The position numbers and the translations under genes are program-made. The notes beneath the pieces are model-generated. The model made no database searches. It was given only the letters and a program-made list of their open reading frames with translations, and was not told where the DNA came from. This document shows positions 48,335-64,000 of a DNA stretch of 64,000 nt, piece after piece (position 1 is the first letter of the stretch; the number at the start of each line of letters is the position of its first letter). The stretch is from Opeltia flavorubescens (taxonomy: Eukaryota > Ascomycota > Lecanoromycetes > Teloschistales > Teloschistaceae): NCBI GenBank assembly GCA_000442125.1, contig KE546975.1, positions 1,488,001 to 1,552,000 on the forward strand, in the 5' to 3' direction.

Positions 48335-48865
48335 ATGCCCGCACCAAAGCACTCCTTCCTCCACCCCGGTGTCCCCGTCAACATCGTTCTCAAATCCGAT
48401 CAGCCCACCGGGAAACTCACAGCTGGTATTGTGAAAGATATTCTGACTAAGGGGGATCATCCACATGGCGTCAAAGTCCGGCTCACGGATGGTAGAGTGG
48501 GGAGAGTGCAGTCGATTCGATCCAACGATTTTCTTGGAAGTAATGATATCAAGGCCAGCACGCCGCATAATGATAATTATAAAAGAAGTTCCTCTGCGAA
48601 GCACACACTCCTTCCAGAACAGCGGGCTACGAGTTTGGAGGATTATATCATCACGCCTTCTCCCTCCTCCAAGATTCAAAAAGCAAAAGCAAAAACAAAA
48701 AGAGAAGCAAAATCTTACGACCCAGTAACGACACCAGAAGACGCACAAACCCACCTCTCAAGAAAATACCCAAATCTCGACACCGCATTGATAGCCGCTA
48801 TACTCGCTGACTACCCTTCCGTCGAAGAAGTGGAGAGGGTGCTCGATACTCTGTCCTCCAGCTAA
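48335..48865 (+). CDS. YwbE-like (DUF2196) protein with C-terminal CUE-like segment
   Basis: The encoded protein is 176 aa in one exon. Residues 10-65 match the bacterial YwbE/DUF2196 family: VPVNIVLKSDQPTGKLTAGI, VKDILTKGDHPHGVKVRL and DGRVGRVQSI, a small beta-barrel of unknown role. A basic, Lys-rich linker (SKIQKAKAKTKREAKS) follows. The last 45 residues (EDAQTHLSRKYPNLDTALIA, then ILADYPSVEEVERVL) resemble a CUE-type ubiquitin-binding three-helix motif, which is inference from spacing and hydrophobic pattern. The 3' end faces the end of the large minus-strand gene 137 bases away. Confidence 0.8.
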   Translation: MPAPKHSFLHPGVPVNIVLKSDQPTGKLTAGIVKDILTKGDHPHGVKVRLTDGRVGRVQSIRSNDFLGSNDIKASTPHNDNYKRSSSAKHTLLPEQRATSLEDYIITPSPSSKIQKAKAKTKREAKSYDPVTTPEDAQTHLSRKYPNLDTALIAAILADYPSVEEVERVLDTLSSS

Positions 48866-49002: not shown

Positions 49003-52000
49003 TCAAGCATCTTGAGCCCCTATCGGTTTACTGAGCTGCAAGAACCCCTCCACAAGCGTATATGGTCCTGGATCAAGGCGGAGACGACCATCTGCAAAAG
49101 TCAAAAATCAGCAAGACCTATTAGCAACCAAAGGCATACGATACGGGGCCCAGCCTATTTCACTCTTCGAGCGTGGCAAAAGACTTTTTGCCGTAATGAC
49201 AGGAGAGTGGATAGATTTAATGGCTGGGATGATGATGGATGATGTTTTACAGAGATGCACATACCTTCCTCCCCCACATCAAAAGCGTTGTACCTTCTCT
49301 CGTTCTCGCCCTCCCCCTCATCTTCTGCGCCCTCCCGCGGAACCTGATATGGCTGCAACCACTCCCAACCCCCCTTCTTCCCCCCTCCTATCGGCAGCCT
49401 GATCTTCGCAGCCACAGGATCTGTCGTACGCTCTCGTTGGCGGCGTAACCAAGTCTCTACATCAAGAGGATTTCCCGCGTCGTAGCTCACGGGGACATCC
49501 TTCGTCAAAAGGAGCGGACCAAGATGGAAGAACGCGCTCATCTTCTCCAAAGCACGCTGTACTGTCCATGCTGGTAGCTGGAGAGATGTTATGGGCAGGA
49601 TGGGTGTAAAGACGTGGAGGGGTGTGTAGGGGTCTATGAGCATGGTTTTGACGAGGAGTTGTTTTGTTTTTGCGGCCGCAAAGTCGGTGCTACTTGAGAA
49701 ATCTTCCGGTGAGATGTGGAAGGGACGGAGGGTATCGGAATTCTCGGGTAAGATCGGGATTCGAGGATCTCCCTGCTCGGGCGCTGAGGTAGAGGAGGGG
49801 GAGATGAAATATGTGTGCAGTTTCTCCCAGTCGGTGGCACCATCGTTGTTATCAAAAAACCCCACAACGCCATCAAAAGGACGGTCCGCGTCGCCGATCT
49901 TGATGGGGAAATCATAGCTCAGTAGAGGGGCTGGCTCCGTTGGCACAGCCGGGCCAAGGGCATCGGGAGGAGAGGTAACCACACCGCTTCGTAGCGGCGC
50001 GGTGGCGAGTTCGAGACTGAAACCCACGTTCACAAGCGCGAGGGGTTTTCCAACTATGGAGGTGGCGTAAGCTGCGTAATCGGGAGGAGAGTACGGCATC
50101 GTTTCTATAGCGCGACTAATCATATTGAAGAAGGAGCGGAGATATGGCCCTCCTCCGTTTGGATCGGAGAGACGCGTTACCAGCTGGTCGAGTTGTGGGG
50201 AGACTAGATTTGAGGGCTGGGATGGAGGGTCGAAGGGGAGCCATTTTGGTGATGTTATGGTGCTTGAGGGGCCCTGGCAGGATGTTAGCGGTCGAGGGTT
50301 GAGAAAGAGCGAGGGAAGCGAACACCGAGAGTCAATTCGACGTAGAATTGGCCTTCGGCTGTGAAGAACTGGAGGCCGTAGTCTGCGAAGTTGACGATCA
50401 CCCTGGAATTGAGTCAGAGATTCATTTACACAGAATACGGTTCATGACCTACCATGCCCATACGGGTTGATGCCAATCGTCAGCTACCTGCCATTTTGCA
50501 GGGTTGGCGTCTGTGGCGGCATTTGGCACCACGAAGCGAGCATTGAGCCTGGCCGGCTGATTGATAGAGGGTGTAAGCTGCACATACGGGCACAGTGGAT
50601 AATCCCCTGGAATCTGAGGATCGGCCTGCGTCAACGCAGTCACTGTGTTCAGATGGCTAGTCCCTGGCAGAAGATTTGGACAGACCTGATCTCCGAGACA
50701 AGGATATACCGTGTCAACAGTCGCGGGATCAATGCTTTGCTGAGGTGGTTTAGGTGGTATGGCACTGATAACCTGCCCGAATTTATCGACGACATTGATC
50801 TTCGTGAACATCATTTGGCCATGTGTGACGCCTTTGAACGCATCTTCCAAAGCGGCTAGATCTTTGATTAACGTTCCGTATGGGGTTGCCCCTGTTTGGT
50901 CGCCTATGACCTTCAAGTCGTTCTGTGTGATACCGCCATCTCTACCGGCTAGATATGTAGCGGTCAGAGGATGTTCTTCGGTCTCGCCGGGAATATGCAA
51001 GTTCGGCTGGACATGAGTGCCCTCAGTCACGGTCGTCAAGTGGCTCGTCAGTCCTTCTAGCTCGGCATTCAAAAAAGCTAGCCGGCCAATATTCTGAACC
51101 AGTTTCGTTCGTTCCTCAGGATCTAGAGTGACGCCTGGTGTGTCCATTACTTGCTCTACTAAAGCTTTCAGATTCACTGTCGCTTGTGGCAGCAGGATCG
51201 CGCGGCCTGACACGGAACGCCGATTTCGAGTACTTTGAGGATCATTGGCTAGATCTTCTTTGACAGCGTATCGCACGCGAGGCGTCACGCTATCAATAGG
51301 AGATGTCAAGAGATCGACGGACCATTTGTTTATGGGGATATGGAAATATGTTGCTTCCCATTCCAAATAGAGAGGACACCAAGGTTGACCTTTCCACGTC
51401 TTGAAGCCAAGAGTATTTCCATGATCCTCTGTAGCAAATGCCTCCCGCCCCAGAACCCAAAGGGCATGCGAAATGTGGGCATTGCGGATCTGAGTTAGAA
51501 AAAGGACTTCAGCGTCATTGTTGTTACTAACGACGGATCTGACAGGTACATTACCCATGTACTCCAATGGCCAGCCAGATGGCATGCCCGCGATGCATAT
51601 TGTTGGATCTCTCCTTTGAAAGAATGGCTGCTGTGGAATACTTCTTGCTGGAACTAACGCAGATGTCGTCGGGTCAGCTGGCTCTTCCTTGCGCACTATC
51701 GTTTCAATCTGGTCATCTAGACCAGTTACTGGAGTCGAAATAAGCTTCATGAGTTTGTCCGCTTTTCCTCGAAGATCGCTGGCGCGATTTGCATACCAGG
51801 TGCGGCGCGCTGGATCGTTATTGTTTGCATCGGAAACGAAGTCCCACCATACTGCAAATAACGACCATTTCACGTCTTGTAACATCCTTATCGCCGAACT
51901 CGATTGATCTTGTAGGTCATTAACTGATCTCAGCTCGTCTAGCTCTGAGCGGCCGGTATCACCATCTGGGATCCAGTTCGGCCTGCCCGGTTGACCATTA

Positions 52001-53364
52001 GTTGTCCGACCATCGTACTGCCAGGCATTACCACCTGAAGTGGGAGCGAAGTTATTTCTCAGCATAATATCCTGAGCCTTGATCCGAGAATCAAAGTCGT
52101 CTTCAGTAGCATATAGTAGTTCACTGAGAGTGAGTAAGTCCTTAGCCACAGCACCTGTCCCAGGCCCGAAAACTTCTTCACTGTCGTTTTCATGTGCTTT
52201 CAGGAAGCTGAGTATGGCATCTAATCCTGTGTTACCGATGGCGAGGGGTTCCATGTCAATATCGTTGGTGAAGAGCTTTGCATAATCGTCGGCTGGAGTT
52301 AGCGGTTTGGTATCTCGATCGAATGATACGTCATAGATTATTCCGTGGCAGACGGTCCTGGCCTCGCCAACGTAATCAAGCCGAGCTTGATTGTCTAGCC
52401 CGGGTCCGGGACTCAGGAACAAATCCCGCAGACGGTCACCAAGACGGCCCTGAAGTCCTTGCTTTGGATATAGTGGATCACTCAATTCATCCCAATGCCA
52501 GCCAAGTACTACATAATCACATACAACTTTCTTCAATGCCGCTTTGTTGCCACTTGCATCAGTATACTGGAAACTGTCGACCATGGAAAACACGTTGGGA
52601 TTATGCATGGTATTGTCGGCAAAGCAAAAGTTCGAAGAATTCATCACAGTCAATTGTGTCCGTGGCACTGACTTTCCCGTTTCCCGCCAGCCTTTAGCAG
52701 CAACTCTGGCACCGATGTAAACGCCGGCTTGCTTGTTGAGGATTTCGGGATCTCGCTCATCCCCGTCCACGTACGAAACGAAAGGACTGACGTCTGTTGC
52801 CAGGTCAACTTCGGGGCCTAATTCGTTGATGTTCCATAACCGGTCACTCTCGATGATCCAAGCATCTTCACGTTGGGCTATTGGCAGCTCTGGCTCGGAG
52901 GACTTGATGCGCCGACCAACGAGCCAACGGGTAGGAACCTGCCAGAATTTGGGCGATGATGTCTTGTTGCCGTTGTCGTTCTTGTGGCTCGTACCCTCTG
53001 CTCCCATCACTCCCGCGCGGTACATGCGGGGCAAGCTCCAATGCAGGTAAACTCCAATGCGGTTTTCATGTAAGGGAGGTTCTGGCGGTGGAGGCTGAGC
53101 TGGATCAACAGGTGGATCATTAGATGAATCAATGACCGAAATGCGCGAGTTGGCCGATGCTGGCTGGCTATGAAGTACATCCACTTGAGGAAGTATGTCG
53201 GCTTTGATATGCGCAGGATCTGGTCGAAGACCTCCATAGTTTGGCTGTGTGATGGGAGCGATTCTTGTGAGACCAGTGTCACAGACGGGTTTGTTCAGTA
53301 CGAATGCATCGACGTTCATGGGGACACATATTGCCCCTGGAGGACCTGTCTCGGAAAACGCCAT
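49003..53364 (-). CDS. very large protein of unknown function, bacterial-like (cluster gene A)
   Basis: Four exons on the minus strand, 53364-50453, 50402-50324, 50273-49265 and 49091-49003, give 1362 aa. The ATG at 53364 (MAFSETGPPGAICVP) is the first in frame. The donor of intron 2 is weak (GTTCGC); it is chosen because it keeps the frame. Motifs include GVYLHWSLP (104-112), WQVPTRWLVGRR (141-152), FADYGLQFFTAEGQFY over the exon 1/2 join, SPKWLPF after intron 2, and DGRLRLDPGPYTLVEGFLQL at the C-terminus. From memory, blocks like LHWALP plus PNRWLV occur in large bacterial proteins of unknown function. There is no signal peptide, TM segment or known enzyme motif, so it is likely cytosolic. 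It shares a divergent promoter with the subtilase-like gene. Confidence 0.8.
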
Positions 53365-54149
53365 GTTGTCCTCTGTGGATATTGAGTCAGGTCGAGGCAA
53401 TGGTTTTCATGTGCTAAAAGGGCAATGAGACTAGCACAGAAACTGTAACAAAGGGCATTTGGATTCCATGGTTCATGATAGAGCATGCATTCGGGAGATT
53501 GGAGGACGTCCATCTACTGAAAATTGCATGCTTTGAGTATCATGCTTCAATCTAGCGCTGCCAATCGGGGCACTAAGTGACGACAATCTCCGCAACCTGC
53601 TGAGGTTCGAAAGGGCAGCGACATTGCAGGCCTGTCATCTGAAGTCGCCTGGAAGCTCAGATCGTGATCGATACACTGGAAAACGAAAGATACCAATGTT
53701 TCGATAAATTACGGCGCCTATTGAATTGTGGCAGAGAGCGCCAAGGGAGTCTAGGCGCCGACAACGACACCATGTAACAACACTTGGACTTCAGCTCTTG
53801 GCCTGGGAGTCAGAAGGCGTTCGGTGGCTGTGAGGCTGCAAGGCCGCAGATGCTGATGATGGACCACGGACATCTCACCGCCTCGATGTAGTTGGGAGGT
53901 GAGATCTCAATATGTGGAAGTCGCTGCAATTGGTGCCTCACCTGGCATGTTCATTGTGGTTGGCTCAACAAACGGTGATTGACGGGTGAGGACGCCAAGT
54001 CATCAGACTTTGCTAGGTTCTGCGATTGCTCTCTCTGCTCACATGTATGTTTGTGCGTCGCACATATTTTTCATTTGACCCATTCTCACACCTTAGTTGG
54101 TGTATTGCAATTTAGATCAACGAGAGAAAGTTGTGGCCAGAATTTCAAA
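53365..54149. promoter_or_regulatory. shared divergent promoter region, cluster genes A and B
   Basis: About 785 bases lie between the two start codons. Upstream extension of both frames lacks a better ATG. No known binding site was recognised with confidence. Confidence 0.45.
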
Positions 54150-56417
54150 ATGTCTATTCGTCTCTCTATCATTTCTGGGGAGATAATCACACCGGGAACG
54201 CCGATACGAATATATTCTCCCCATCCAGTCGATCCAGCTTCCGCAAGATCGGAAATCAAGCTTTCAACTGCGAGTGCTGTCATAGAGTGCAAGTTATCAG
54301 TGAGAGACAAATTGATTGAGATCGACACACATAATCTATTGTCCAACGCATACAGACTGCAAGTTGGTACTCTGTTTGATTGCAAAAAAGTTTGTATAAA
54401 TAAGCTACCCATCTCGCGCAACATTGTCATTCGGTCAATCAAGGGTCGAATCGCATCCGACAGTCTGATCCAGCATGTCATCCATCTGGCCGTCGGTCAA
54501 ACCTCTACCACTAGGCTTAGACCAGGCGAAGAAGCCCCTGCTGGAACTCGATATCTGGAGGCTATTAGGGTGATGGATCGTCAAACCCATAAGTCCTCCC
54601 GCTGTTACTTCAAGGAGGACGGGGATGAAGTCGATGGGGCTAGGATTCTCGCATCTGTCGACCAAAGGCGCGAAAAGAAGTTTGGCCGCTTTCACGAGGC
54701 TTTGTGGAATCGGTTACAGACAGCGGACGATGATGATTTACACGAAGTCATCGTTTGGCCCAAAATCGGTGATGAAGATGACGATGATGTGAAAACGGTA
54801 AAGCAAAATTCCTCCTGTCCTCGTGATAAAAACACAAGATCGGAAATAATCAAGCTCATTAAAAGTTTCGGCACCGACTGCGAGCATAACGAAATATTGC
54901 CTCTCGTCTGCACAAAGCTCACAACACGACAGCTCCACCAATTGGCATCATCAAACCACATCGCCAAAATATTCTACGACGACAAATCAATCACCCTTTC
55001 ACGAGCCAGCCTTCGCTCCTCCCTGACCACAAGCCGCGCAAATCTCGTGCATCCCCGCCTCATTCTCGGCCAAGGCATAAAAGTCGCTGTATGGGAAGAA
55101 GGCCCCAGCGACACAACAGACCTAATCTTCGCCGATCGATTCCAAGCCAACCCCCCCGCTTCAGATCACGCCCGCCTCGTAAGCGGAATCATAAAATCCG
55201 CGCCGAACCCCCAAGAACCCGCCGGCTACGCCCCAGAATGCGAGCTCTACTCCGCAAATTCCTACAACGAAAACGCCCTCGCATGGGCAATCACCAAAGG
55301 CTGCACAGTCATCAATCACAGCGCGCATAGAGCCTCCGAGGAGGCCTCCGGAGAACTATCAATCCGAGACGTACAATACGACTGGCTAGCCACGCATTCC
55401 CCCTTCCCCACCCTAGTAACCGCAGCAGGGAATTTCGGCGCTGTGACCAATGATCGGAATCCGAAATACGTGGTTCATAAAGCTTACAATGCTATCCCTG
55501 TCGGAGCCCACGCTTCTATCTTCAGACAGGACATCAGCGAAGCAAGGATTCCCGATTGGTCGAACTTCAAAAATCCAACTTCCCCGCACGCGGATAGGGA
55601 ATTACCTCTCCTAGCTGCTCCCGGGGAGAACATCTCCGCTGTGGGGCTCACCAAGTCCGGCACGAGCTTCTCTTCCCCCGCTGTAGTGGGCGCGGTGGCA
55701 TTATGCCAATCCGTAGCCCCGGCTCTCCTGGCAGGTAATCCCGCCGCATGCCGCGCCATCATGCTCGCATGCGCGGGGAGGAACGTGAGCGGCGGTCTCT
55801 GGGCCGCTGATATCGCCGCACGGATCGACGCCAGGGACGGAGCGGGCGCACTAGATGTCGATGCAGCAGTCCAGATTGCACAAGCTCATCACCCCTATGG
55901 TCCTCCGAGACCATTGGCTTCTGGCTCTACAAATTCAGCGGCGGGTGGGAAGACACAGTGGCCGAGGGGATGGACAAGTGGGGTTTATAAATCTGCTGAT
56001 ACACCTACGTCTAATAGAGTGGTGTGGAAACAACATATCTCCATCCCGCCCCCGTATCGTCTTGGCATCGTCTCCGAATCCGCCCTTGGCCTTACGTTTC
56101 GCGCGACCGTGACGTGGAATGCTCGTGTTAAGTGGCAGCCTGGTGGTGCAGGCACCAATGGCCTTTCATACCTCCCTGCGAATTTGGATATTAAAATTCT
56201 GGATGGGAGAAGTCTGTTGCCTGTGGCGTCCTCGGCGAGCTTTGATAATAATTATGAGGTTTGTGATTTTGTGCCTGAGGCCGGACGAGGGTATGATATC
56301 GTCGTCGAAGAAGAAGATGACGGGGTTGGAGCGGGGAGTGGGGCGCCGGGGGGTGGGGGGCAGACGTTTGGATGGGCGGCGGCGTGGTGTCTGTTTTATA
56401 ATGAGGAGATTGTTTGA
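54150..56417 (+). CDS. subtilase-fold (S8) protein with altered catalytic Asp (cluster gene B)
   Basis: A single exon encodes 755 aa. The frame opens 57 codons earlier, but the ATG at 54150 (MSIRLSIISGE) follows a normal A-rich leader. Residues 1-300 form an N-terminal region of unknown type, ending in a possible inhibitor-like segment (KLTTRQLHQLASSNHIAKIF). The S8 domain follows: KVAVWEEGPSD (311-321), where subtilases have VAVxDTG; DHARLVSGII with His340; VTAAGNFG with oxyanion Asn428; and SGTSFSSPAVVGA with Ser506. The usual Asp position is Glu316. The C-terminal 170 residues resemble a beta jelly-roll (TFRATVTWNARVKW). There is no signal peptide, unlike secreted fungal subtilisins. Activity is uncertain. 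Confidence 0.88.
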   Translation: MSIRLSIISGEIITPGTPIRIYSPHPVDPASARSEIKLSTASAVIECKLSVRDKLIEIDTHNLLSNAYRLQVGTLFDCKKVCINKLPISRNIVIRSIKGRIASDSLIQHVIHLAVGQTSTTRLRPGEEAPAGTRYLEAIRVMDRQTHKSSRCYFKEDGDEVDGARILASVDQRREKKFGRFHEALWNRLQTADDDDLHEVIVWPKIGDEDDDDVKTVKQNSSCPRDKNTRSEIIKLIKSFGTDCEHNEILPLVCTKLTTRQLHQLASSNHIAKIFYDDKSITLSRASLRSSLTTSRANLVHPRLILGQGIKVAVWEEGPSDTTDLIFADRFQANPPASDHARLVSGIIKSAPNPQEPAGYAPECELYSANSYNENALAWAITKGCTVINHSAHRASEEASGELSIRDVQYDWLATHSPFPTLVTAAGNFGAVTNDRNPKYVVHKAYNAIPVGAHASIFRQDISEARIPDWSNFKNPTSPHADRELPLLAAPGENISAVGLTKSGTSFSSPAVVGAVALCQSVAPALLAGNPAACRAIMLACAGRNVSGGLWAADIAARIDARDGAGALDVDAAVQIAQAHHPYGPPRPLASGSTNSAAGGKTQWPRGWTSGVYKSADTPTSNRVVWKQHISIPPPYRLGIVSESALGLTFRATVTWNARVKWQPGGAGTNGLSYLPANLDIKILDGRSLLPVASSASFDNNYEVCDFVPEAGRGYDIVVEEEDDGVGAGSGAPGGGGQTFGWAAAWCLFYNEEIV

Positions 56418-57635
56418 AACGTATCAATATAAATCAGTAGCATTTACTTTTCCCTACCCCTTGACTACAAATAATCAGGTCGAGAATATACCTACTCACC
56501 TCTTTTCTTATTCTGACCATATCTCCACACTAACACCATATCATCGTAGTAAAGTCAAATATCAAAAATAGATTTCCCCTTGTTTTGTTTGGTCCCTNCC
56601 CCTTCATCACTCCCTCCTCCTCCACCACCACCACCAAAAATTGGGAAAAGAAGAAGGCTACAGAACGCCCGACCTTCTATATAACGTGAAAACAAGAATT
56701 TTAAATTGGTGAAATAGAGATAAGATGTAAATCAAGCAACAAAATCCCTCCCTGGATGGATAGATACTCAAACACAAGGTCTCCGTACATAACAAATAAA
56801 TGCAAATCGAAATTTTTCCGAAATACTTATTTATCTCTGAATACAAAAAAGGTAACGGAGGGAAGAAGAAGGAGGAGGAGGTAAAATTTACCATCCAGGA
56901 CGGACGACCGGAGTTTTTAACATTGTATAGATATGTTATCTACGTGGTGAAGATCTGTAAGTTTTCTTGGAAGAAAGGAGAATAGCTGTAGCAGCCACTG
57001 CACCCCCTTTGTTCGTGTATACTTTTCTCTCTCCCTTTCATCCTCTAAGACTTTTATTCATATAAGGTGAAACGGCACCAAAAAAAAAATTGGATTTTTT
57101 CTTTTCTTTTCTTTTCTTTCCTCGCTCTCCCTTCCTTCTTCCTCCGCCCGAAGTGAATTTTTAATTTTTTTTTTTTTTTTTTTGCTTTTTTTTTTTACAA
57201 GAATGAGGGGATTTTCTTTTTATAGATGTTTTTCGGGATTTATTTTGAAAGTAGTATATACACTATTGGATAATCTGAAGGGTGATGATGAGGGCGCGAT
57301 AGATAGGGCTTTCTTGCTAAACCCCCAACGTACTTGAGTTGATCTATATTACGAAAGTTCGGCTGGATGGGGAGGAGGACTTCTGAAAGGTCTAGAGAGA
57401 GAGAGAGGGAGAGAGAAAGATAGAGAGAAAAGAAAAAGAGAAAGAAATTTTTTTCAATCGCATTTGAAAAACGTTTCTACGGCGAAGGGGGAGGGGGAGA
57501 CGTAAGTGAACCAGAGCCGGTTCAAAGGACTAAGTTTCTTCCGGAATATCCAAGATTAATGACCGATTCTTTCAGGAGAAGTTTTGGACAGGAATTGAAT
57601 TTTGAATATCATATTTATGGATATTTAGTTCCTAG
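56418..57635. other. convergent intergenic region, homopolymer- and purine-rich
   Basis: This lies between the 3' ends of cluster genes B (plus) and C (minus). It contains a T-run of about 20 with a second T-run near 57160-57197, a CTTTT tract near 57110, and a GAGA-type purine tract at about 57391-57450. One ambiguous base lies at 56598. No gene was seen. Confidence 0.6.
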
Positions 57636-60479
57636 TCAGCGCTGAGTGGTCAAAACAGGTCCTCGCTGATTGATAGATAGGCCTTGAAGTTCTCTCACCG
57701 TCTCTAGACCTTGCGCTTTCAATCTTTCGAAATCCCCTTCCCCTGTCCGCGCAGACCTCGCATCATCATCATCATCATCATCCGCTCTCAACGCCATCGG
57801 TCCAGTAGGATTATCATTCTTTCCAGTCCACAACTGCCTCACTCCCCTCTGCACCACCGCCGTTCCTGCACTCTCCACACCCTGGATCTCAAGCCCATAG
57901 CACCGATCATTCAACTCCAACCCCACAACCGCAGACCCCACATCCGCATCAAACCCCTCCCCCCCCTCTGGCCCAGTGAACGGCAACACCCTCTTCAAAC
58001 TCTGCACGTACTTGTCTACTTGTACAACGCGTGTGGTGGGATCGTACCAACTCGCCGCTTCCTGATCCGGGATTGATGTGTTGGGTAGAGGAGGCCATTC
58101 CCCCTCCTCAGGCGCACCACGGGTGAAGAGTTGCTTGATTTGAAATGGTAGACCCTCGACTGCGGGTATGGGTGCTGTAAAGCGCTGTTGATGCGGTGGT
58201 TGTGTGAGAGTGATGATTTGAATATCTTCTGGGGAGCAGTCCAGGAGCGCGAGGATTGTGTTCTCGTCGATGCGGGTTAGGCGGATTAATGCTTGTGCGG
58301 AATTGGGGGATGTGTCGGGATTTGTAGTGGTGGTGGTGGTGAGGATTGTGATTCGAAGATCTGGAATCGCTTTCACCAATAGGGAGCGTAGAAAGAAACC
58401 ATATCGTGGAACTGGTGGTTTTAGGCCATTAGTGCCGGGGATGGGTGTGCGGAGGAAGAGATTGTATGTTTCCTTGATATTTAAACGCATGGTGTCGTTG
58501 TCGGCTGAGAAATGATTCGCTACGGATAAAGCGCCGTCGATGAGGCAATCGAGCCATGCGTCGTCGATGTGGAAGAACCGAAGTGCTTCGGGGGGTAGAC
58601 GAATGGGCTCATTTTTGGGGGAGAAAGGAATAGGAGTGGAGGCTAGGTGGCTGGGGTCCGTGATTAGGTAGTGGGAGGGTATCCCGGAGAGGAAGAGCTT
58701 GTCGCTGATCCAGGAGTGGATGATTGACCAGTCGGTGTTTTTGGCGGTGGTGGAATAGTAGTCTGAGAGGATGTGGTTGTTGTCTGCGGAGCGAGCTAGG
58801 TTATCAATGACGTTGCTACTTATTCTGCGGGAGAGAGCTGTGATGTCGGGATGTTGTCTATTCCTGAGGCTTTGGCGTTGAAGAGCAAAGGAATTGCGTT
58901 GGGGTCGTGTTTGGCCTTGTGTTAGATTGTGCATGTTCCCCATGATGTTGAACGCTCGATTGACTATCTCCCGAGCAGGCGTAAAGCCATTGAGCGTCAT
59001 TCTCAGTTCGTTCGAAGCAGATTTGTGAATGAGGGAGCGGAAGCGGAAGAGCGCTTGATAGAAGGTTGTATCAAGCATGGCGAGCATTTTTCCCAATTGC
59101 CAGGCAGATGAGTAGGTTGTGTCCACAAGGCCTAAATCCTGATCGAGTATTTGATAATCTTTGCCAGTGTAGGACAAGTAAGGCCACTCCGAAGGTGAGA
59201 CCGCCGAAGGCGTCTTTGATGTTGGGGCGGGAACTAAGGGTCCCCTAACGAATGCCGCCGTCTCTTCTCCCGTCGTCGTTCGCCATCTTAAGAGTGTGTA
59301 ACCGAGCGATAGCCTTTGGTGTAGAAGCTTCTTACCAGACTCCAGGTCCGGCGTGGTCTGGCCTTCCACTGGAGCAATTATCTCACCCAGTATGGGGTTC
59401 GGGGGTGTCAACATTTGTTTCTGATCACCTAAATTTTTCATGAGAGCGGTAAAATTGGTTGGAAGTGGAGGTGTGGAAGTATAGTTCCAACTGAATAATG
59501 ATATAATTCCAATCCGATCGGAGGAGTTTGAAGGATCATGCGGCCCGTATATGATGTTCTTAACGCTGACCAAATGGACAATCTGAGTCACGGGTTTATT
59601 AAGTCCCACGGTGGGTCCGCTTCGATGAGACACGCAAATGGAATAGAGGCCACTATCTTCGTCGGTAGAATCAGGTAGACCTGTATTGCTAACTTGTCGT
59701 ACATGTGCCATGTACATGACATCGAGTAACTTCTCTCTGGGGAAAAGGGATTCTATCAAGCTCTTTTTTGGGAAGATAATAGTGGTAGGGTCGGTAGAGC
59801 CTTGTAGATTGGTCCATTCTTCCGAATCAGGAGGTAGACCGCCTTCGAGAGTCACCCGCGACGTAACCTGCGTCAGAAACTCTCCAACTTTCATTGGAAA
59901 CGCACCAGAACTTGGCTGCCCATTGACTTGAAAGGATGGAATACGCAGTGCATCGCCTTCAGCTTTGGTGAGCTTCAGCTCATCCGGGTCGAATACTACG
60001 ACTGCGATCCATGGCGGTCGAGTCTTCAGCCTGACAAAGGGATCAATCACAACTACCTCGGGGCGGAAAGGAGGTTTGAAGGGTGGTCTCTCCCATGGAA
60101 GATGAGGGTCATTGAACACTATATGTGGTAGAATCCGTGCTTCTTCCACAAATCCATCAGGTGGATAGTATGAATTGATGGTTTTTGCGTCCAGCTGAAA
60201 TCTAGGTGCGACGACGGTGAACTGTTGCAACGATGTAGGGTAGTCTTGGCCAGCTGGTGGAGGAACGGTATCGATGCTGTTATAATTGTAGATGTGTAGC
60301 TCTTCATTGGCTGCCTGTACGATCTGTTTGGCTTCGATACCATATACACCTTCCGACAAGATTGGGGTGTGGTGATTGAATAATTTCATATGCCCATCCG
60401 GCAGTTGTGGTAGACTGAGTGCCTGGTCCTGGAGGCTTCTCGCTCTTTCGATGTTCTTTCTTGCTAGAGCTCGAGCCAT
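57636..60479 (-). CDS. large protein of unknown function, bacterial-like (cluster gene C)
   Basis: A single exon encodes 947 aa, ATG at 60479 (MARALARKNIERARSL). Motifs include QFTVVAPRFQLDAKTINSYY (86-105), ILPHIVFNDPHLPWERPPF (116-134) and PPWIAVVVFDPDEL (155-168). From memory, bacterial unknowns share the order of a sheet block, FPP, LPHVVL, LPWER, PWLALLVFD. The middle part is helical (residues about 450-560). The C-terminal region has a run of seven aspartates encoded by a GAT/GAC repeat (57760-57785), which may vary in length. There is no signal peptide or TM segment. It shares an upstream region with gene D and converges on gene B. Confidence 0.85.
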   Translation of the reverse strand: MARALARKNIERARSLQDQALSLPQLPDGHMKLFNHHTPILSEGVYGIEAKQIVQAANEELHIYNYNSIDTVPPPAGQDYPTSLQQFTVVAPRFQLDAKTINSYYPPDGFVEEARILPHIVFNDPHLPWERPPFKPPFRPEVVVIDPFVRLKTRPPWIAVVVFDPDELKLTKAEGDALRIPSFQVNGQPSSGAFPMKVGEFLTQVTSRVTLEGGLPPDSEEWTNLQGSTDPTTIIFPKKSLIESLFPREKLLDVMYMAHVRQVSNTGLPDSTDEDSGLYSICVSHRSGPTVGLNKPVTQIVHLVSVKNIIYGPHDPSNSSDRIGIISLFSWNYTSTPPLPTNFTALMKNLGDQKQMLTPPNPILGEIIAPVEGQTTPDLESGKKLLHQRLSLGYTLLRWRTTTGEETAAFVRGPLVPAPTSKTPSAVSPSEWPYLSYTGKDYQILDQDLGLVDTTYSSAWQLGKMLAMLDTTFYQALFRFRSLIHKSASNELRMTLNGFTPAREIVNRAFNIMGNMHNLTQGQTRPQRNSFALQRQSLRNRQHPDITALSRRISSNVIDNLARSADNNHILSDYYSTTAKNTDWSIIHSWISDKLFLSGIPSHYLITDPSHLASTPIPFSPKNEPIRLPPEALRFFHIDDAWLDCLIDGALSVANHFSADNDTMRLNIKETYNLFLRTPIPGTNGLKPPVPRYGFFLRSLLVKAIPDLRITILTTTTTTNPDTSPNSAQALIRLTRIDENTILALLDCSPEDIQIITLTQPPHQQRFTAPIPAVEGLPFQIKQLFTRGAPEEGEWPPLPNTSIPDQEAASWYDPTTRVVQVDKYVQSLKRVLPFTGPEGGEGFDADVGSAVVGLELNDRCYGLEIQGVESAGTAVVQRGVRQLWTGKNDNPTGPMALRADDDDDDDARSARTGEGDFERLKAQGLETVRELQGLSINQRGPVLTTQR

Positions 60480-61419
60480 TCTGCAGATTGTCTCTTTGTA
60501 AAAAATATCGCCTGTGATGAAAGGCTATACTCTGTAGCTCAAATACTCTAGAGACAAAATGGATACTTTGATACTGGCAGATTGCAAGCTATCATCCTCA
60601 AAGACCTACTTGGACGTGACTTCTGTTTAATCCGGCAAAGTCGATGCTCTCAATACTCAGAGCCAGCTAATGCATCAGTTGTCTGGCGTTCCACCTCATC
60701 TCGCTACAATCCAAGCGTCAGAAGGGAAAATTTAGTAAGATGGAGTCGTTTGTCTGAACCACTGATGAAGCTGGCTAAGGACTCGGCGGACTTTGTAAGG
60801 CATAGAATAGGGCTCACGATTTTTCTGATCATGGCGATAGCATACAATGGCCAAGGATTCCAGACCCTTTCTTCCCAGCGCCGGTGGGGTGGCAGCCGCG
60901 AATTGTCGGGATGGAAGGAGGAGGTGAAGATACATGACGGAGATTGCCGCCAGCCTTGTATGGTGAATAATAATAGCGAAGAGGTCCAAACAGACTTGAG
61001 TGGTCTCTTATCATCAGATGGCGTCCAACGATGTCTCCAATTATTGTGTTAGTGATACAACTCTGGCTTGCCAAGCTTGGTGGGCGGTAAGCCTCTTCGC
61101 GCTAGTGTCACATAACGGTATTTTATCATCTCTCTTCTATGAACCAGAATCTGCAGGAACCGTCATCCCCACCCATGCAGCTCGAGCTTCGGGTAGGGAA
61201 TGGGAATAGAATTTGCAGCCTTATCAAATGTCAACGATCAAATAGGATTCCACCCTTACCTCCCAATGCCCCGCCTTACCCCAGGCAGTCTGAAGCCCAG
61301 TATGGGCGGATATGAAGACTTCTTTAGTAGTACAGACATATCACTTACCGAAGATACCTGAGAATTGCAGCATCAATGGATGGGATCATCACCGACTCAT
61401 GATCTACTAGATCTGAACA
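60480..61419. promoter_or_regulatory. shared divergent promoter region, cluster genes C and D
   Basis: The 940 bases between the two start codons contain a 156-codon plus-strand frame (60582-61052). It has no motif and ordinary intergenic composition, so I do not call it. Confidence 0.4.
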
Positions 61420-64000
61420 ATGGCATCCTCTGGCCTCGACAGCTTTCTAAGCGGCCAACAATTCAGCACAAGTCCTGAATGGAACGCCATCATCCAGCAA
61501 TCTCCTCTGCAGCTACAAAAACTTCCCTCCGATCAACCAGGAGCTCCAGTCATCAAAAGTGGTCAACTATGGAACCTCAACTTTTCGAGCTCCCGCAACT
61601 CTGCAAAATTTGGCCCTCCCCCTCAAAGAGCCAGCGATGCCTCAACTCCAGACGAGCCTCCGGACGCAGTATTTAGCTTATTAGCCACGTCGGAAGCTCT
61701 AAGAACTTTCAAACTCGAAGATGATGTGCGTCGAGGTTTCGGTCTGGATCCAGTAAATACTCCGCCCAAGATCGCTGCATTCTTCAATCGAATTGATCCC
61801 AACAAATCATTGACGCTATCTCTGGATGGCTCCGACGAGGCCCGTTCTGCCTTCTGGGCGTTATCGGGGCCTGTATACCGAACAGCTGTGTCGCTTGTTT
61901 TCGTACTGCCTGTTGCAGTCTTGGATGCCATCACAGCTTTCGTCCGGGATGAACGTGGCGTGAATCTCCATACCACAGGTCAAGCACCACTTATGACCAT
62001 TAGAATGCTCACTTCACATATTACCGGCGGAAATCCGATCGTGATCCAGAATGATTCAAGTGTTGCCATAGTCGTAAGTGTTCAGACTGAATTCTTCGAC
62101 GTCGAGATCAATCTGGACGTTTCGGGTCTGGAGATCCGCTTTTCCGATTCGCGAGATGCCGGCGCATCCTCAACTCCTCTAACCACCAAATTAAGCCAGA
62201 CGACAGCCGGAAGTAGCACAGCAACACCTACGCAGGGAACATTGCCAGATTCATCGGGTGGTGGCATCTTTAACACTTTCCTGAAGGATATCGAGCTTTT
62301 TTACATGGTACCACATGTTTCTGAAGAACCTCCCGTAGACGACGAGGCTGGAAATACGGTAGCCGTACCCGGTATAAATTACTGGCAAATCATTCTCCTC
62401 GCTAATTGGCAGACTCACGCGGGTGTCGTCCTTGCCCTACAATTTGACTCTCGGACTTCAACCTTGTATGGAAGACTTGTTTTCAAGAGTGATGCTGCTG
62501 CAACGGGTGAGAACCGGCGTTTTGATTACGATCCTAGACTTGACCTTGGACTTGCTACATCGAAGCCTTTACCTGATTCATTGGATATCTGGAAACTCTT
62601 CAGTCCATCTACCAAGGCACCTGCACAGATTCCTAGCCAGTTGACCAGTGCGAGTGTACAATTTGGTAAGGGCCCAACAAACGACTCGATTGTATTCGGC
62701 ATTTCTGGAACCCTTTCGGCCGCTTCCGCCGTCGCCGCGGCTAACAAAGCTGCCGACTCGGCACCAGATGGCTTCGTTTGGGACAGGGTCAAGGTTCAAG
62801 CAATCATCCAGAACGGTTCAGGATCGATTACGACAAGCCTTCAGCTCAGCTCGGAGATGTCCATCAAGGTCGATAATATCGACCCGCCAGTAAAGCTGTA
62901 TTTTGGAATTGCATACCGCTCTCCAGGTTCCTGGCTTCTACACGGTCAAGCCAATGATATTCCTCTTAGCTCGCTGTCCAACTTCTTTGCTTCTTCAGTG
63001 CGTAAATCTGCCATGAAGATGCTTGGTAGCATTGCAATTCGCTCTCTTGACATGATATACACGTATGATCCAAGTGGAGAAGCATCGTCCTTTTTCATCT
63101 CGGCGGCATTAATACTCGGCGAGCTCGAGCTTGATTTGAGCTATGAGTACGCGTCAGCCCGGCTGACCACAAATGAGACTTCTGCGTCGCAGATCGCTAA
63201 GACGGAGGGTATCAATTCCATAGACAGAGCCGAGCTCAGACCTCAGGCAACAGAGGCTTCCTGGACATTTGAAGCAACACTTGGGGCAGCGTCCCCCGAC
63301 ACGGATGTTGGGAAAGTGATCGACAGTCTCACAGGGAAGCCCACCGTCCTTCCGTCTTTTGTGCGTGGTATTCCTGTTGGTGCTGCAGCTAGTGGTGACG
63401 CCGCTGTGAAATTGGCTCTTCATGGAATTTCTGCATCGACAGTCCTCGCGATTTCCATCAAAATTAGTGCAATCAGCCTGACTCTTGTCTCGTTCACCGG
63501 TACCAGTGATGGCCCGAAGAAGACCGTCCTCCGAGTCAGTGTCGATGAGATGGAGGTAGCGAAAAGCGTGCCTTTGATCAAGGAGCTACCGCAACCCTTC
63601 GACAGCTTGCTGTACCTCTGGCTCAGCGATGAAGAAACCGATGCAACGAAAGCAGGTCTGTTCGCGCAAGACCTGCAAACCATCAACGACACCTTGGCAG
63701 GTCTCAATATTCCTCCCATCTTAATTAAAGATACGAATAAGCAAAACACCGGTCTGGCTACCTTGCGTGTAGGTCATCACTTCATGATAGTGAACCATAA
63801 CACCGTGATACTAGACCATAATTTCTCCGATTCAGACGCAACATCAACACCTTCAGGCACTGCCATCCCTCCCGACCCTTCTACACCAGCAGCAGATGCG
63901 GGATCTGCGCCCACTAAAGGTGCGATGGACAAGAAACTCCCTCTTCTCTCCATTGACGCGCTTTCATTACTCTACAAACAAGGAGCACTCGGTATCAGCA
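61420..64000 (+). CDS. giant protein, possibly DUF6603 type, runs off the window (cluster gene D)
   Basis: The frame from ATG 61420 (MASSGLDSFLSGQQFS) is open for 860 codons with no stop to the window end, so the protein is partial here. Composition is beta-rich with repeated alternating hydrophobics (VSVQTEFFDVEINLDVSGLE, VWDRVKVQAIIQNGSGSITT, FEATLGAASPDTDVGKVIDS). Near the end, KLPLLSIDALSLLYKQGALG resembles the opening of the DUF6603 region of giant bacterial and fungal proteins. That assignment is from memory and unverified. There is no signal peptide at the start. It is head-to-head with gene C. The size class (probably well over 1500 aa) and lack of introns set it apart from the housekeeping genes. 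Confidence 0.8.
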   Translation, partial: MASSGLDSFLSGQQFSTSPEWNAIIQQSPLQLQKLPSDQPGAPVIKSGQLWNLNFSSSRNSAKFGPPPQRASDASTPDEPPDAVFSLLATSEALRTFKLEDDVRRGFGLDPVNTPPKIAAFFNRIDPNKSLTLSLDGSDEARSAFWALSGPVYRTAVSLVFVLPVAVLDAITAFVRDERGVNLHTTGQAPLMTIRMLTSHITGGNPIVIQNDSSVAIVVSVQTEFFDVEINLDVSGLEIRFSDSRDAGASSTPLTTKLSQTTAGSSTATPTQGTLPDSSGGGIFNTFLKDIELFYMVPHVSEEPPVDDEAGNTVAVPGINYWQIILLANWQTHAGVVLALQFDSRTSTLYGRLVFKSDAAATGENRRFDYDPRLDLGLATSKPLPDSLDIWKLFSPSTKAPAQIPSQLTSASVQFGKGPTNDSIVFGISGTLSAASAVAAANKAADSAPDGFVWDRVKVQAIIQNGSGSITTSLQLSSEMSIKVDNIDPPVKLYFGIAYRSPGSWLLHGQANDIPLSSLSNFFASSVRKSAMKMLGSIAIRSLDMIYTYDPSGEASSFFISAALILGELELDLSYEYASARLTTNETSASQIAKTEGINSIDRAELRPQATEASWTFEATLGAASPDTDVGKVIDSLTGKPTVLPSFVRGIPVGAAASGDAAVKLALHGISASTVLAISIKISAISLTLVSFTGTSDGPKKTVLRVSVDEMEVAKSVPLIKELPQPFDSLLYLWLSDEETDATKAGLFAQDLQTINDTLAGLNIPPILIKDTNKQNTGLATLRVGHHFMIVNHNTVILDHNFSDSDATSTPSGTAIPPDPSTPAADAGSAPTKGAMDKKLPLLSIDALSLLYKQGALGIS

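Follow-up and report, generated by a model that had tools for sequence, protein, structure and literature searches.

Four large genes, A to D, lie at the end of the window (the whole stretch of DNA analysed, 64,000 nucleotides, C11:1488001-1552000; the genome comprises 34.4 Mb on 23 contigs), and they raise the question of whether they form one system, where else such a system occurs and what it might do. A preliminary description had read them as a candidate conserved four-gene system of bacterial type, acquired by transfer, in which the protease-like B might help to mature a large complex. Our gene models bore out the sizes proposed for A, B and C and extended D, previously placed at more than 860 aa, to 1648 aa, with a stop 2,991 bases past the window end (gene D spans L004:920-6491). 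The four genes are as follows.

49003..53364, minus strand: gene A, 1362 aa, three introns; A family, without a Pfam match, with 88 homologues plus bacterial relatives
54150..56417, plus strand: gene B, 755 aa, no intron; subtilase (PF00082)
57636..60479, minus strand: gene C, 947 aa, no intron; C family, without a Pfam match
61420..64000 (the part within the window), plus strand: gene D, 1648 aa, five introns; DUF6603 (PF20248)

Gene models and the place of gene B

All four are real genes, and open frames of 812-1055 codons lie far above chance expectation. A and B stand head to head, as do C and D, while B and C converge, exactly as first described. The label 'intron-poor' holds for B and C, which have no introns, and fails for A and D, whose three and five introns were delimited by splice sites placed by eye from sequence alone; those of A fall at 50452-50403, 50323-50274 and 49264-49092 (minus strand), the second keeping the frame only with an atypical donor. 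The reported lack of signal peptides stood up in so far as Kyte-Doolittle analysis, the one method applied here, showed no N-terminal hydrophobic stretch in the window proteins; in D such a stretch occurs further in, around residue 157. A small frame beside gene A (48335-48865, plus strand) may resemble the YwbE family.

In the Pfam search neither A nor C nor the portion of D inside the window gave anything above cut-off. Matched exon by exon and across the window end, D contains DUF6603, previously raised as a possibility: stretches of D and its continuation scored 135, 87, 65 and 62 bits against a curated cut-off of 27. The same domain is found in 86 of the 87 relatives of D, and a bacterial D, that of locus L006, reaches 360 bits (E 2.1e-107). 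The nearest named protein relatives (58-72% identity) come from the genera Pyrenodesmia, Kuettlingeria, Squamulea and Caloplaca, lichen fungi of the Teloschistaceae, so that the window probably belongs to a fungus that forms lichens; the C-terminus of the window's C is shorter than those of several relatives.

The subtilase fold of B was confirmed (PF00082, family S8, E 4.6e-12). His and Ser motifs were found, and inspection by eye places 'VAVWEEG', that is a Glu, where the Asp usually stands. Phmmer gave no match to B across the 86 bacterial loci described below; there was one weak plasmid match, no paralogue was found elsewhere in the same genome, and B went undetected in that genome's second cluster. 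In L044, one of these bacterial loci, another subtilase lies 116 bases upstream of D (PF00082, E 3e-47); its similarity to B is not significant. Judged by these searches, gene B is outside the conserved set, so that of the proposed four-gene system A, C and D stand and B falls away. Since B has no match in the bacterial loci and went undetected in the second cluster, and the L044 subtilase shows no significant similarity to it, a putative role of B in proteolytic maturation would be a local addition at most.

Distribution and history of the D-C-A genes

Seeded with P0290, a remote homologue of A that was treated as bacterial, a search for A matched 8 of 72,556 plasmid records (three of them from one species); the fungal C matched the same 8, and the D of L006, searched separately, matched 7, its own record included, all within that set. 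A was absent from the 50,697 phage records searched. A one-genome-per-species scan with an alignment of A proteins yielded 270 relatives; the loci of the 80 best were joined to 6 plasmid loci, giving 86 bacterial loci. Relatives of D, C and A lie in the order D-C-A on one strand in 84 of these 86, as counted with C and D profiles seeded in part with fungal proteins and with some of the plasmid loci (like these two, the E and enzyme profiles derive partly from the loci on which they were counted). The two exceptions are a locus whose contig ends within C (L018) and a plasmid without D (L008). The set spans eight phylum-level lineages: Actinomycetota (most loci), Bacillota, Bacteroidota, Pseudomonadota, Acidobacteriota, Planctomycetota, Cyanobacteriota and SAR324. 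The order is strong though not absolute, because three further loci (L173-L175) have A upstream of D-C. A, C and D are thus a conserved system, and the idea of a multi-protein system of bacterial type, made of large proteins of unknown function, is upheld for them: their homologues are mostly neighbours and not single and scattered.

Two features of the flanks were also recorded. Both L008 and L009, two Paenibacillus plasmids, carry a phospholipase-D-like gene downstream of A, and in a SAR324 bacterium a cassette of D, C, A and E is faced by two convergent long frames, of which one contains RHS repeats (L013:16294-23584, minus strand; E is described in the next section).

The association also appears in genomes that were not selected via neighbourhood. 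Among 296 Actinomycetes genomes, sampled evenly across the class to which a Nocardia (G001) belongs, DUF6603 (D) occurs in 31 and A in 18, and all 18 A genomes fall within the 31 D genomes (Fisher p 7e-21). When G001 and G010, both of which came from loci found through A, are left out, 16 of 16 A genomes carry D. The remaining 13 of the 31 D genomes have no A match, a count of A that is a lower bound because two candidates per genome were scored. These 13 comprise three weak matches and ten scored as a diverged type II (D'-C'-A'). A C-like gene follows D at 8 of the ten and at three further type II loci; it gives weak profile matches in 8 of the resulting 11 loci (L162-L172), with a profile-profile probability of 88%. 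In 10 of the 11 the next very large frame (about 1400-2100 codons) was taken as A', for which a relation to A was not detectable.

Among fungi, with contigs matched by equal length, C and D share 16 contigs, A and D 11, A and C 9, and all three 6. On several of them the genes bear neighbouring numbers (Exophiala 005213, 005214 and 005215 are an example), Squamulea has one numbered gene between A and C (tags 004484 and 004486), and the A and C genes of Pyrenodesmia and Kuettlingeria fall on separate contigs, which may reflect true separation or broken assemblies. The genome that holds the window has a second cluster, together with a third, short stretch of DUF6603.

C9:54005-58459, minus strand: A2, by similarity to A
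C9:60853-63293, minus strand: C2, by similarity to C
C9, from about 64627 to 72517, plus strand: D2, in pieces collinear with P0061
C19:29313-30595: third DUF6603 stretch, short, with no A or C match within the 30 kb inspected; perhaps a remnant

The second cluster has 26-28% identity to that of the window in its main stretches and repeats its arrangement of A(-) C(-) D(+) apart from B. Along the minus strand both clusters run C then A, as in bacteria, with D inverted, and the window layout is better read as an ancestral D-C-A in which D has been turned round and B has entered the space from C to A.

Short-search, unrooted trees built from picked rows place the fungi in one group each, with support of 100 in every case (36 of 36 rows for A, 28 of 28 for C and 24 of 24 for D); homologues are not fungal-only. 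The A and D trees also have cross-phylum groups in common, such as one of Paenibacillus, Nocardia bovistercoris and Chitinophaga, from which we infer that D-C-A moved jointly among bacteria. Entry into filamentous fungi probably happened once. The acquisition by transfer suggested earlier, from bacteria to fungi, is likely, its direction being read from breadth, as the trees are unrooted.

Fibre-like genes and enzymes around the core

A further family, E, accompanies the core in 78 of the 86 bacterial loci, with 119 copies at 1-5 per locus. All 119 are on the strand of A, and 118 come after it; the remaining one lies within the C frame of L066, where a single long frame (L066:5092-9954) matches both the C and E profiles, so that C and E may be fused there. 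E proteins have a common N-terminal region and variable C-terminal parts that resemble a fibre stalk and tip. Searches of Pfam, PHROGs and PDB returned no firm match, and from the character of its sequence E reads like a fibre protein; in one locus (L016) three proteins with a phage tail collar domain stand beside it. As E is missing from 8 of the 86 loci it does not define the core, and the E profile has no match in the window.

Enzyme genes were counted directly upstream of D in a minority of loci, partly because the upstream flank is often short. With profiles made from these same loci, this place was seen to be taken by a metallo-beta-lactamase-fold gene in 11 of the 86 and by a nuclease-like one in 3. 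Elsewhere this position holds a trypsin (L016), a weak match to an M91 peptidase (L082) or the subtilase of L044, and a hemopexin-like family is present in 12 bacterial loci. An enzyme domain also occurs on D itself: of 17 D proteins examined, 7 have a metallo-beta-lactamase motif near the N-terminus, as does D2, the N-terminal profile match to this fold has a probability of 96% (E 4.7e-9 over 86 columns), and in one bacterial D (P0069) the domain exceeds the Pfam cut-off. Another protein, P0057, has two stretches of H-type lectin. These fusions tie both enzyme and binding parts to D. The window's D has no recognised enzyme, for which the subtilase B may substitute. As for the partners, the predicted structure of a bacterial relative of C contains beta domains and gave no clear fold match.

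A proposed modular particle and the competing readings

The reading we tentatively favour is that D-C-A forms the core of an undescribed three-protein system, a modular particle whose genes spread as a unit among bacteria and, probably once, into filamentous fungi. D, C and A would assemble into one large complex; D would hold or expose an enzyme, either the product of its upstream neighbour or an N-terminal fusion; E, or a lectin fused to D, would provide target binding; and the particle would deliver the enzyme to the cell or surface that is targeted. As to function, this would be modular machinery in which enzyme and binding parts can be exchanged, whether a delivery particle or a conflict system of the immunity type. 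A more specific version, which we consider possible though rather doubtful, is a new cross-kingdom class of large non-contractile D/C/A particles with an interchangeable enzyme and fibre or lectin targeting. The unit would move between bacterial phyla and would have reached fungi, certain of which joined an enzyme or lectin to D and have kept the system in use, perhaps for dealing with microbes, as opponents or partners, in lichens. Neither a signal peptide nor a pore, tube or sheath was recognised.

Contractile or phage-tail-like injection systems and Tc toxins likewise combine fibre-like binding genes with a swappable enzyme. In the D-C-A core no sheath, tube or baseplate gene was recognised, and there was no firm PHROG match. 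D and its bacterial relatives are members of DUF6603, a family defined as a domain of unknown function. Its name appears in none of the 5.39 million papers searched, and no description of the C and A partners was found in the literature covered.

An unlikely but substantial competitor is an intracellular conflict system, acting in immunity or altruistic death, in which D-C-A would sense or scaffold and the variable hydrolase (metallo-beta-lactamase, nuclease-like or protease) would be the effector. The enzyme types recall the effectors of such systems: the metallo-beta-lactamase upstream of D in L064 has a fold similar to, and its nearest PADLOC matches in, the Lamassu effector LmuA (E 1.9e-10) and RTasMBL (E 8.4e-6), and L006 has a conflict-system gene about 9 kb from D. 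NTP-dependent ternary conflict systems of multicellular bacteria have a MoxR or other NTPase core with vWA and variable effectors (PMC7159879). D-C-A is reminiscent of them in its three genes of conserved order, its changing effectors, its presence in more than one copy in some genomes and its frequency in Actinomycetota. Against this reading, D-C-A has fibre-like genes and is also fungal; no Pfam or PADLOC match to MoxR, another NTPase or vWA was obtained in the A, C, D and E proteins scanned, no known sensor was recognised in A, C or D, and those bacterial A, C, D and E proteins that were run against PADLOC matched nothing. Tail-fibre-like E proteins and H-type lectins also suit binding outside the cell better.

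A surface or spore-coat structure, or an adhesive layer, in which D, C and A would be wall proteins, E would form exposed fibres and the enzyme would be accessory, appears improbable. The large proteins, the beta domains predicted for C and the varying copy number of E agree with it, as do hosts that presumably belong, in many cases, to filamentous or sporulating groups; against it, no secretion signal was seen in the fungal proteins (Kyte-Doolittle), and the fact that D proteins of distant lineages carry an enzyme domain suggests more than a structural role. Least probable by far is the earlier proposal that B matures the complex of A, C and D: its position between C and A, the single gene at that place in Squamulea, known by number only, and the unrelated-looking subtilase of L044 speak for it, but its absence from the 86 bacterial loci, the failure to detect it in the second cluster and the Glu read by eye at the usual Asp place weigh against it.

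Because the fungal genes are related to a bacterial three-gene set with fibre-like genes and sometimes changing enzyme genes, D-C-A looks like an undescribed molecular apparatus common to bacteria and fungi. Kept together in eight phylum-level lineages and in fungi, equipped with exchangeable parts for catalysis and binding, and unnamed in the literature searched, it would be a new molecular machine and one more of the multi-gene systems that fungi have received from bacteria.
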